64,000 nucleotides of DNA from Meloidogyne chitwoodi (lineage: Eukaryota > Nematoda > Chromadorea > Rhabditida > Meloidogynidae), in the NCBI GenBank assembly GCA_015183035.1, contig JACZZP010000014.1, forward strand, positions 1,798,001 to 1,862,000. The letters run 5' to 3'. The notes under the pieces are model-generated. The model was not told the origin of the DNA, did not search any database, and saw only the letters and a program-made list of their open reading frames with translations. Position numbers and translations under genes: made by a program. Every line of letters begins with the position of its first letter. The first letter of the stretch is position 1. This document shows, piece after piece, positions 41,001 through 47,000 of this stretch.

Positions 41001-44000
41001 TTTTCATCGATGTTCATTTTTAAGCGTTATATAAATAATATATATATATGTGATGGAAAAATCGATTGGCCAGCCGAAAGGAGATATACATTAAATTAAA
41101 TAGAAAGAAATTGGGGGGTAAATAAAAAATAATAGAGGTGATCTTTATTTATTTTTTTAATAAAAATATTAAAATTATTTTTAAAAACCAAAAAATTCGA
41201 TAATTTTGAAAGAATAATACTTTTCCGGATAAAAATAAATGATCAACAATGAATCAGAGACAAAAAAATACAAAAATAATTCTTTATTTTTCCCACTTTG
41301 CTATGCATCAATGACCTTTTTTACTCCCTTTTATTTTTACACATCACCTCAAATAATATATACATATAAGGAAGTGCGCCATAATTTTTTAAAAAACGTA
41401 AAAAATAGAGAAGAAAAATAATTCTGAAATTGCGGAGGAAAATACAATATTCTGAAATTTTTCAGAAAATACAACTTTAAAATAAATTTGAAAAGGTTTA
41501 AGAAAATACAAAAATTCTGAAAGTTTCAGGAAAATACAAGTTGAAAAATAAAAAAATTCTGAAATGTTTCTGAAAAATACATTTTTATAAATATTCTGAA
41601 AGTTTCCGAAAAATACAAGCTGCAAAATAAAATAAATTCTGAAAATGTTTTAAAAAATACAATTTAACAAAATTCCGGAAATGTTGTATTTTTTCCGTTT
41701 TTTTTATAAAAACATTTTTTCCCCACCTTTGTTGCAGTTTTTTCTCTGTTGATGCAGCATTAATATTACTACTACCTTCTCCCCCACCAATTCCACTATC
41801 CAATTCGTCATCAGCCTCTTGTAAAGTTGAAGGTCTTTTGGCAACAATAATATTTGTTGAATTTAAAGAAGAAAAAATTGTAGAAATTTGAGGATGTTCA
41901 ATAAAATTGGTATTAGCTAATTTTGAAGAAAAAAATTTTTGTTCAGAGGAGAAAATATTATTTTTTTCGTCTTCTGGTGTTGTTGTTATAATTGAATTAT
42001 CAGGACTTCTAAAAAAATAAAAATAAATTTTTTTTTAATTTTTTAAATATAGATTAATTTAATTTAATTAATTATTTAATTAAATGATCAGCAAAATGAT
42101 CTTATTTTGATTTAAAAAATAAAAGAAAAAAAATATAATTATTTAAAAGGATATATAAATAATAATATTGTTTAAAAAGAAAAGAATTTTTGTATATCAA
42201 AAAATAAATAAAATCTTTGGAATGTTTGCAGCTGGAATCGTTGCCCTTTTTACTACAACAAACAACATAAAAAGCGATTTAGGGCAACGATCCCCTCCTT
42301 ACACTCTTCTCTCAATTTTCTCTTCTTTTCTTTTCTTTTTTTTTACCCACACCACCCAAAACGTTTATAATATTATAAAATATGTGTGTATATAATTTTC
42401 ATTTTTATAATTTATTTATTTCAAGAAATGATCAAAAAGATAAGCATAAAAATTAAAAAAGAAAATATATATTTTTAAATTTTAATAAATGACCGAAAAA
42501 ATCTCCAATTAATTTTTAATTATTTTATTAAAATATTTAGTTATAAAAAAAGTCGAAAAAATAATTAAAAATTTTCTTAAATAAATAATAAAATTTATAC
42601 GCTTTTTGAAGAGATATTTTGGGAAGAATTCGCTTTTGAATAGTTGTAGATAAACGCCAAACTGCAATACAGCCACTATAAAAAGTTAATTAAAATTAAA
42701 AAAAATAATTAAAAAAAAACTAACGAATATGTAACGAGCAAAAGGCGGCTAAAAATGAATAAAATGTTAAAATATAAATTTATATATAAAAATGTTTGTA
42801 TGTACACCTGCAGTCAGGCAAAAAGGCAAGTCCGGTGACACAGTCAGATGGAAGGCCAATCACTGTAAAAATAAATAATAAAATGACCACACAAAACACA
42901 AATATTATACAAAATACACATTTGTTTAAACATATGCTTTTAGTAATGTTTGCAAAACAAAATGTTTTGCAAACATTGAGTTTTGTAAAACATTAAATGT
43001 TTTGTATTCTTTATAAAATTATATGTTTGTGTGTTTTTGTTTAATATTTTAAAAATATAAAAACACTGTTTTTGTATTTTAAAATGTTTTAATTTATGTG
43101 TTTTATTTTTTCTAAAAACACATATAAACAAAAAAACATGTTTTTACTTAGTTTGTATTTTCTCATGTTCTCCAAAACATATTTTTGATTTAAAATACAA
43201 AACATTTGTTACTTTATAAACAAAACACATTTACAAAAAAATACCGTCACAATTGTTGCTAATAATTTCTGCACACTTTTCTTCTTTTAAGTCTAACAGG
43301 TGGATACTCTTATTAGAACAAAGAATTGCTATATAAAAAATACTAAAAACTTTTTCAAAACAATAAAATAAAAGCTGGTTCAAATAAAATGTTTATAAAA
43401 TAACATTTTTTAATAATTTAATTAAATTCAAATAAAATATTATTTTTGACGGCTGCTATTTATTTAAAAACAAGTGATTTTTAAAAATTGGCGAAATGTT
43501 TTTATTTCCTAACCTATAGAGAAAAGGAAAAAAAGATAACATTTATTAAGAGAAAAGAAAAAAAGTAACTTAAGTTTATTTTTTAATGTATTCCTTTCAA
43601 CTTTTGTTTCAAGTTTAATTTTGTTTTAAGTTTAAATTGTAAAGTTTTATTTAAAGTTTATTTTGTGCTTCAAATTTGATCTTCAAGTTTCAATAGAGGA
43701 TATTTTGCTTAAGGTTTGCTTATAAATTTTAAAATTAAAAATTTTGAGTTTGGTCTGTTTAAAAAAAAAACTGTCTGTTTTTTTAATAAAGTATTCTTCG
43801 AAGAATATTTATGTAAAAAAATATCAAAGAAATAAACATATTTCGATAAAAATGAACATGTAAACATTTTTAGGACAACAACAAATGAAAGACCAAGCTT
43901 TTTATAAAAAAATTGGGAAAATAAGTGGAAAAAGCCGGAAGAACAAAAAACCCAATCGTCAACAACAAACAGCAGAAGCAAGACAAAATGCATTAACCGC

Positions 44001-47000
44001 CAGAAGGAACAAGAAACAACAACAGATAGAAATTCCTGGAAATTCTGATCAAGAGGTTTATTTCAATTTAAAAAATATTTATAATAAGTATTGTTATGTT
44101 TAATTTAAAAATATATTTGGTCTATTATTAAAACCTTTAAGGCATTTTAATACTTGACTATTTAAGGGAACACTCTTAGCTTCAATAGAAAATATAAAAG
44201 AAAATAAAATGAACAAGAAACAACAAAATTCTTCTCAAATAACTCCGCCTGAAGACAATTTAGGCCGATGTTCAAATAATTTATTTGTAGCACTTTATGA
44301 TTTTTATGGAGCTGGAGAAGAAAAATTATCTTTAAAAAAAGGAGATCAGGTTTTTTTAGTTTAATAAAAAATGTGTAGAATTATGAAAATAAAATTCAAA
44401 AAATAAAATTTTAAAGCAATAGAATAAGTAACAAATATTTTTAAGATTGAAGTACTCAGTTATAATAAAACAAAAGAATGGTGTGAAGTTAAGTTAATTA
44501 ATAGACAATGTGCATCTACAAATTCTGAATGTAATGGACGAATTGGTTTGGTACCTAGCCATTATATTGCACCTACTAATTCTATGGATAAACAAAGGTT
44601 TTTTATTTATTCACTTTGAGTTTTTTAATTATATTGAGTGTGATTTATAAGTTTCCCTAATTTCAACTTATTTTCTTTTACATTACAGCCTTACACAAAT
44701 TGCTGAATCTTCAACATTAATTAATCAAAATGCCTCGACTTCTCAACAACAATCAACAATTGAAGAAGATTATGAGAATGAGAACAACGATAAAGATGAA
44801 AGTGATGATTCTGAAGATGATCCAATTAAACTAATTAATTGTCCGTACTGTGGTTTGGGGTTGCGTAAATTGCGTAAAAGACATTATACAAGTCCTGTTT
44901 GTGGCCGAAATTCGTTTTACACTGACAACGGCATTAGTATTATCTACAATAATGTGTTAAATGGAAATTTTGTAGACACAACAAACTTTATCAATCTTTT
45001 AAAAAAACAAAACAAAGGAGAAACAGTATATATTTTCTAGGGCTTTTCTGTATAAAAAAATAATTTTAAAAATATTCTTAAGGTATACATAATAAGAAAA
45101 GGAAAAGAATTAGTGTACGTTGGCCATACAAAAACAACAACCCAACTTCGTTTTTCCTGTCATAAAATAAGAAAAATTGCAAAGAAAGAAAAATTAGAAT
45201 ATGCCATATTAATGTCAAACTTAACGACTGATTCGGCGTGTTTCCTAGAGTCTTTAATTTTATTGGGTTTTGTCATTCCTTCAGAAAGAACTTTAAATGA
45301 AACATATGAACATCGCAATTTATCAAATTTTTTATTAGATGAAATGAACTACAACTACATTCCGAAAGTATTTAATCCTTATTATAAATAATACTTTTAT
45401 TTTTAGATAAGATTGTATCACCATGAGGTCTTTTCCTTCATTTATAAAAGAAATTTAAAATGGAGATTCGTTCACAAAGATTTAAATTTTTGAATAATTT
45501 TTTATTAAATATTGTTTTAAGTTGTTGGGTATACCCCACACTTATGTATTATTATTTATTTTATTTGAATTTAATTATTAAAAAATATTATTTTTTAAAT
45601 TAAACATTTTAATTTAATTTACCTGCAAAGGTTCCAGAAGGGTCTACGCATATCTAAAAAATTAATAAAAAAATCAAAAATTTTAAAATTAAAAAAAACC
45701 TTTGTAATTCGAATTCCACCTCCTTGTTCTTCTTCTTCTTCAAATTTAGATCCAAAAATTAAATTATTTTCATTTAAAGTACGAAGTAATTGACCATTTA
45801 TTGGATCAATTTCATAAAGTAAACAATTACATCCAATTAAAATTGTTTTATTTTCAATAAAAGATAAACAATTTGGAATTTTTTCAATTGGCCATTTATC
45901 AATTTTTAATAATATTTTTGTTGAAATAAAATTATTATTATTTGTTGTTTTATAATCAATTATAATTTCTCTACTAATTAATACTTGATCTACACTAAAA
46001 CTAATTAGTAAAAGAGGAGAATCCTTTTTTAAAAAAAATAAAATTTAATTAAAAAAAATAAAAAAAATTAATAATTAAATTATTTAAAAAATTAAAAAAA
46101 AAATTTTTTTTAATTTAAAAAGTAGACGTTTGGGCGCGTAGTGTTTAGAGGCTCTCGCTTAAATACAAATGTGAACCCAATATTTTTTTTTTTAAATTTT
46201 GCACAAACATTTCTAAAAGACTTAGCTACCTCTAAGAAAAAATTGAGAATTTTTAGTCAAGTAATTATTAAAATATTAAAAAAAAATACATTTTCGCGAC
46301 AAAACGTCTTGTTAAAAAATCAAATATTTTTTTAATTTTTCAATAATATTAATAATATTATTTTTTATTTAAAAAAATATAAATAAACAAAAAAAACCTG
46401 AGTAGATTTAATGAATTTTAGTGTAGTAATAGGCCCTTTGTGTTCATCCAAAGTTAGCAAATGTAAATAATTTTGTTTGACATCAAATAAATGAATTAAT
46501 CTATCTCTACTAGAAGAAGCAAATATTAAATTATTAGAATTATTGTTGCTATAATCTAAACAAAGAATTTCATCTTCATGAGCTTCAAATTCAACAAGTA
46601 AAGGCCAATTTATTTGTTTTAAATCAAATATACTTTTTTAAAAAATAAAATAAAATATTAATTTAAAAAATTAAAACCAAATATTCCCGTTTTTACGACC
46701 ACAAGCCAAATGTTCTCCACCCGGACTAAGCCTTTAAAAAAAAATAATTAAAAAAAAATAAATTAAAAATAATAACCTTAAACAACGCACACCAGTAGTT
46801 GATTCTAAAGAATCCGAAAGAAGACCACCAAAATTTTCTTAAATTAAAAAAATAATTAAATTAATTTTAATTTAATTATTTTTAAATTTTTTTCCTTATT
46901 TTTTAATATTTTCAATTTCTTACTGTCAAGTTGTTCAGTTAATAATCCACTTTCTGTACTTAAAAATAACACTTTTTTCAATTCTGGAGATATTGATAAA

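Follow-up and report, generated by a model that had tools for sequence, protein, structure and literature searches.

A mosaic SH3 and GIY-YIG-like gene as probable cargo of an introner-like mobile intron in Meloidogyne chitwoodi

A 64,000-bp stretch of the genome of the nematode Meloidogyne chitwoodi (C6:1798001-1862000, C being a contig label; henceforth termed the window; the genome comprises 47,477,280 bases in 30 contigs) contains a gene in which an ABL-type SH3 domain is joined to a zinc knuckle and a GIY-YIG-like domain, and which lies entirely within an intron of another gene. The best explanation, to which we assign a probability of roughly 0.72, is a mosaic cargo gene inside an introner-like mobile intron. 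In this scenario, one gene of a zinc-knuckle/GIY-YIG family found in Meloidogyne would have captured exons for the SH3 domain from the abl-1 gene of the same worm, as DNA and together with the introns, as homology and common introns indicate. The mosaic gene would then have joined a repeat unit of about 2.3 kb with inverted-repeat ends, copies of which coincide with spliceosomal introns of host genes. Such a unit would insert into exons and be removed from the host transcript by splicing, and could therefore spread without killing genes. The gene probably encodes a GIY-YIG protein that nicks DNA and is positioned through its N-terminal domain, and the SH3 domain of the window version would bind proline-rich partners.

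The predicted gene occupies positions 43885-45391 of the forward strand and consists of five GT-AG exons, with borders picked by hand, that form a single open frame of 383 amino acids (Table 1). This agrees with the sequence-only reading, which had proposed one spliced frame running from an SH3 domain through an acidic linker and a CxxC..H..C knuckle into a C-terminal block. The second copy, the introner-like nature of the enclosing intron and the other fusions of the module come into view only with the whole genome. The SH3 domain starts at N95, the knuckle is formed by CPYC (220-223), H234 and C240, and the GIY-YIG-type residues are Y283, Y293, G295, R304, H308, E337 and N353, Arg304 and Glu337 having been placed correctly from the outset. 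By eye, the product of exon 1 resembles the N-terminus of the M. enterolobii GIY-YIG protein P0005. No other protein combining SH3 and GIY-YIG was among the matches listed in the database protein searches (3, 1 and 4 matches).

Table 1. Features of the mosaic gene and of the unit that carries it, in window coordinates.
Feature	Position	Strand	Description
Exon 1	43885..44055	+	residues 1-57, basic N-terminus; GT donor
Exon 2	44167..44349	+	first SH3 part, SH3 start 44278; matches abl-1 exon on C8
Exon 3	44446..44597	+	second SH3 part, ending ..NSMDKQ like the abl-1 exon; 90% DNA identity over 97 bp including donor
Exon 4	44689..45025	+	acidic linker and CxxC..H..C zinc knuckle (44840-44902)
Exon 5	45083..45391	+	GIY-YIG-like domain, stop codon included
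Host intron	43329..45622	-	2,294 bp, GT-AG, WDR62/MAPKBP1-like WD40 gene; encloses the whole fusion gene on the opposite strand
Host exon upstream of intron	45623..45653	-	31 nt, ..CVDPSGTFA
Host exon downstream of intron	43245..43328	-	starts AILCSNKSIHLLDLKEEKC; far border by eye
Left inverted-repeat arm	43379..43445	+	79% over 66 bp with right arm
Right inverted-repeat arm	45548..45624	-	outer end CAG/GTAAATT.. provides host splice donor
Segment recurring in other introns of the genome	43553..43885	+	ends with TTTTTAG acceptor directly before start codon

Homology supports the conclusion that the SH3 exons were copied from the worm's own abl-1 gene. The domain scores above the Pfam cut-off for SH3_1 (E 1.2e-10), and its closest solved relatives are ABL SH3 domains (2abl, E 2.8e-12), so that the sequence lies nearest to ABL. 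Contig C8 carries a full-length abl-1 gene in which, as read by eye, the SH3 exons are followed by exons coding for SH2 and kinase domains. Because this gene and the fusion have both SH3 intron positions and near-identical splice-site wording in common, the capture appears to have occurred at the DNA level, introns included. Identity between the two amounts to 70% over 359 aligned DNA columns (20% gaps) and is higher along exon 3 (Table 1). Synonymous divergence (dS) of the SH3 domain from abl-1 is 0.17 for the window fusion and 0.16 for a second copy on C9, and exceeds that between both fusion copies (0.09); the capture therefore probably predates their split. The earlier suggestion of copied abl-1 exons has thus gained a donor gene in the same genome. 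The sequence-only reading had further suggested that the product might be a targeted nuclease or might compete with ABL for proline-rich partners. In addition to the intron positions, ALYDF, EWCE, VPS.YI and the N-S-DK linker are held in common with ABL1 and abl-1. Residues that we take to form the ABL SH3 binding face are retained in the window, namely ALYDF, the Trp of EWCE, and the Pro and Tyr of VPSHY. Unlike ABL, the fusion reads GLVPSHY in place of GWVPSNY (Trp to Leu), the Pro being absent too in the C9 copy, and it continues without SH2 or kinase, neither of which appears in the Pfam listing of the 383-residue protein, which is thus not an ABL kinase.

The flanks of the host intron in the window join in frame (CVDPSGTFA/AILCSNKSIHLLDL, also written DPSGTFA/AILCSNKS). 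The host scores 5.5e-28 for the Pfam family WD40_MABP1-WDR62_2nd (under its cut-off) and 2e-9 for WD40 (above cut-off), and both best stretches sit in a neighbouring host exon rather than across the intron join. A heat-shock element considered in the recurring segment was dropped, its spacing departing from what we take to be canonical, and only a palindrome is left.

Relatives of the unit were collected at 14 loci. Eleven came from a search with the element, which gave 63 matches; the 13 rows of at least 100 bits were used, two of which are abl-1 and were excluded, and shorter rows were mostly set aside. One and two further loci came from two additional searches. In the search that gave two loci, matches with three mismatches were dropped because a reversed control gave 6 against 18, and the six with zero or one mismatch were kept. 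Loci L044, L045, L057 and L060 were judged to be AT-rich chance or unrelated matches. At 13 of the 14 loci (11 and 2 loci) the element coincides with one host intron whose flanks are in frame, so that similar introns occur in unrelated genes and similarity stops at the splice sites, as in introners. Two of these are gene-bearing copies, in the window and in a nuclear-receptor gene on C9 (join VCNDAAT/GIHYGTPSCNG). The other 11 are shorter relatives in genes for NF-YB, arrestin, an SMG8-like protein, innexin (57 bp, end repeats only), a Na/H exchanger, troponin and the PKA regulatory subunit (PKA-R), on C27 and C29 (the latter truncated), and in two unnamed genes. The unit is antisense or consists of end repeats only in nine loci and lies in host sense in four. 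BLAST match ends provide a check independent of the hand-picked splice sites: excluding the window, the match begins 1-6 bp from the intron start in 12/12 loci and ends 0-8 bp from the intron end in 9/12, the distance being 13-21 bp in the exchanger, PKA-R and L068. Pfam identifies six hosts (WD40, Smg8_Smg9, NF-Y, Arrestin_N, Troponin, RIIa), and its match crosses the intron join in four of them (Smg8_Smg9, Arrestin_N, Troponin and the RIIa of PKA-R, the last also by PDB); the receptor, innexin and exchanger hosts were named by eye, with paralogue matches in support. A simple chimera devoid of mobility was set aside because the whole unit recurs with its ends at splice sites. As a separate observation, the exchanger intron (L035, C29:610000-614000, 1906-2129) is an element piece that includes a bit of captured abl-1 coding sequence.

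The knuckle and GIY-YIG module is, as judged by homology, a Meloidogyne family that recurs elsewhere in this genome. On C12, a nuclear-receptor zf-C4 domain (Pfam 2e-15, above cut-off), the end of which shares one uninterrupted exon with the knuckle, precedes the GIY-YIG exon. A module gene on C8 (L042, C8:911000-916000, minus 3266-1600) has three GLI-like C2H2 fingers (2gli, E 1.7e-18), the last in one exon with the knuckle, and one on C2 (L031, C2:773000-780000, minus 3719-3034) has a BED finger (zf-BED 1.3e-5, above cut-off) in the same exon as the knuckle and a GIY-YIG exon that hits an early stop. The module thus appears to have been joined repeatedly to varied host-type N-termini: the ABL SH3, a nuclear-receptor DNA-binding domain, GLI-like fingers and a BED finger. 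These fusions are read from the sequence; their purpose would presumably be to position the product. Module genes on C1 and C10 are 95% alike over about 4.9 kb, with UBM below the Pfam cut-off at their N-termini, and inspection by eye revealed no inverted repeat at either end; their N-termini, like that of a further module gene on C3, are of unclear type. Relatives on C28 (L027-L029) and C29 are degenerate, those on C28 containing stops, and L027-L029 are probably dead GIY-YIG copies. Two side observations concern these loci. Just upstream of the C12 fusion, on the same strand, lies a tyrosine kinase gene (L043, C12:2372000-2377000, minus 4533-3313; Pfam PK_Tyr_Ser-Thr 2.8e-70) that is ABL-like by eye, and the combination of GLI-like fingers with the module in L042 has a predicted natural finger-nuclease-like layout.

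The C-terminal block is supported, with limits, as GIY-YIG-like by motif and family. It follows the residue order that we take to mark this class (Tyr/Tyr-x-Gly/Arg/His/Glu/Asn); Tyr, Tyr, Gly, Arg and His are invariant in 9/9 aligned modules, and Glu and Asn are absent from truncated or degenerate rows. A profile of four knuckle and GIY-YIG modules from the genome aligns with one of four database relatives at 98.8% (hhalign, E 4.6e-17). Among these kin, P0004 (M. floridensis), P0005 (M. enterolobii) and P0007 (M. incognita) carry the GIY-YIG block, and P0005 also the basic N-terminus and CxxC..H..C knuckle; unlike the fusion, none has an SH3 domain by Pfam. UvrC and I-TevI are GIY-YIG nucleases, and five of the six PDB matches of the module profile are UvrC GIY-YIG domains (E 0.03-0.3). 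What we take to be the UvrC order of Tyr, Tyr, Arg, His, Glu and Asn is followed, and the profile match to UvrC is weak (E 0.03). The sequence-only reading had called this block GIY-YIG: motif order and family homology bear this out with limits, the Pfam score of the fusion protein lying below cut-off and the structural models being of low confidence. A search of the genome with the Pfam profile PF01541 gave no match.

Several observations weigh against the mobile-intron reading, and the first concern this domain. The fusion protein scores 15.5 bits for Pfam GIY-YIG and exon 5 alone 17.1, both under the cut-off of 22.6, which the relative P0004 clears with 25.9. The GIY-YIG exon of the C12 fusion stays below it too (17.7 bits), and in the C8 fusion the finger families are under cut-off and GIY-YIG is unlisted, because of which its GIY-YIG block rests on the module alignment. 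AlphaFold models of the module are poor (mean confidence, pLDDT, of 46.6 and 43.3 with two and five input sequences), and a strand-strand-helix-strand-helix order appears in the first only; the fold assignment therefore rests on sequence. Splicing of the fusion gene and of the host introns is predicted from sites picked by hand to bring the frames together; the hosts at C27, C29, L039 and L068 are four genes that lack an identity. The remaining points are given with the alternatives on which they bear.

According to the first alternative, which we regard as doubtful but worth serious weight, pieces of abl-1 and of a GIY-YIG gene were gathered by a non-autonomous element, as in Pack-type elements, and are now a functionless, decaying passenger. 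The second copy of the unit (C9:1913233-1915473, 89% match) bears on this directly. Exons 2-5 are open in both copies, with 66 substitutions and no stop over 325 aligned codons. Nonsynonymous divergence (dN) is 0.059 and dS 0.122, giving a dN/dS of 0.48 (bootstrap 0.32-0.83), and the exon lengths differ by 6, 9, 0 and 0 nt, the C9 exon 2 acceptor being hand-picked. In a neutral simulation, 1.3% of runs remained stop-free at 66 changes (P 0.013) and 12% at 33 (P 0.12 if 33 changes count). Because the unit recurs on C9 with stop-free codons and this dN/dS, the fusion is more than chance. In favor of decay, exon divergence between the copies (3.9-9.4%) is not below intron divergence (2.2-8.3%) and L026 is a truncated piece. 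In addition, the reading frame breaks between exons 1 and 2 of the C9 copy, which may therefore be decaying.

It appears unlikely that the GIY-YIG protein itself is the mobility enzyme, as it would be in a homing or transposing intron of nematodes whose short copies are passengers with internal deletions. The gene is the only one recognised in the long copies, its catalytic-type residues are retained, and the C27 copy consists of both element ends joined. By eye, the C2 module gene likewise lies antisense between exons of a muscle-type Fn3/Ig gene resembling twitchin or titin, and spliceosomal introns of mirusviruses contain GIY-YIG genes (PMC12768974). Against this, the gene is present in two copies only, a transposase would hardly be expected to contain a captured host domain, and we found no support for placing the other module genes in this unit. 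We also know of no GIY-YIG enzyme that moves inverted-repeat elements, which counts against such a role.

That the gene is an ordinary nested gene, a duplicated chimera in a pre-existing intron, with the repeats being common transposon fragments inserted into introns that were already there, is improbable. Introns make up much of the noncoding space of compact genomes, and a good copy at C9:1678972, the fourteenth locus, sits by eye after a stop codon and outside any intron. Target-site duplication is inconstant, with 0-4 bp at 10 of 11 sites and an 11-bp direct repeat at the ends of the exchanger intron only. Yet the element coincides with the intron at all other loci, and in eight the end of the element itself supplies the donor GTAAATT... 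Paralogues were checked for the exchanger, nuclear-receptor and innexin hosts; those of the exchanger and the receptor also speak against pre-existing introns, even if absence of the intron could be loss. An exchanger paralogue on C12 (71% identity) reads through the insertion site, and a second match (C1, 54%; six matches including self) extends across it, with a single stop at some point along its length. Nine of 30 nuclear-receptor matches span their site, eight of them stop-free, as do two weak non-self innexin matches among 11, both stop-free. Finally, an exon model that wrongly joins two adjacent genes is highly improbable: the connection of exon 3 to exon 4 is predicted from splice signals, but the abl-1-type donor is retained in phase and the C9 copy is open across this join as well.

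Introners form families whose members resemble one another yet occupy unrelated genes, some of them having inverted repeats (Gozashti et al. 2022, PMC9860276). Across animals and land plants, no more than two groups proved to contain introners in a survey of 3,325 genomes (PMC9860276). A text search of that paper for "nematod" gave no match. The introners described there derive from non-autonomous elements, whereas two copies of the present unit hold a multi-exon protein gene. Mirusvirus shintrons are likewise spliceosomal introns with an endonuclease-type gene, to which the predicted arrangement here corresponds within the limits of the GIY-YIG assignment; they are viral and target-gene specific (PMC12768974), whereas here an antisense gene lies in an animal genome and the unit occurs in many hosts. 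Nematode intron gains have been reported with their source not known (PMC9169325), and a GIY-YIG survey (PMC1564403) is a further precedent. Among the papers listed in literature searches on introners, intron gain and GIY-YIG, with subscription papers mostly outside their scope, none describes this gene or introners in nematodes, and there was no match for GIY-YIG together with a nuclear-receptor DNA-binding domain.

How new introns arise is a long-standing question. The family described here is small and datable, the nematode genome that contains it is compact, and its long form bears a gene, which makes it possible to ask what mobilises introns of this kind. By joining one module repeatedly to host domains, the genome offers a natural example of exon shuffling, and a GIY-YIG block combined with nuclear-receptor or GLI-like fingers would be a counterpart in nature of engineered finger nucleases. 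As a long shot, intron-making elements might encode a GIY-YIG nuclease of their own and exchange its host-derived N-terminus (SH3, receptor DNA-binding domain, GLI fingers, BED), with finger-nuclease-like proteins helping to spread spliceosomal introns. If true, this would be the first cellular counterpart of viral shintrons.

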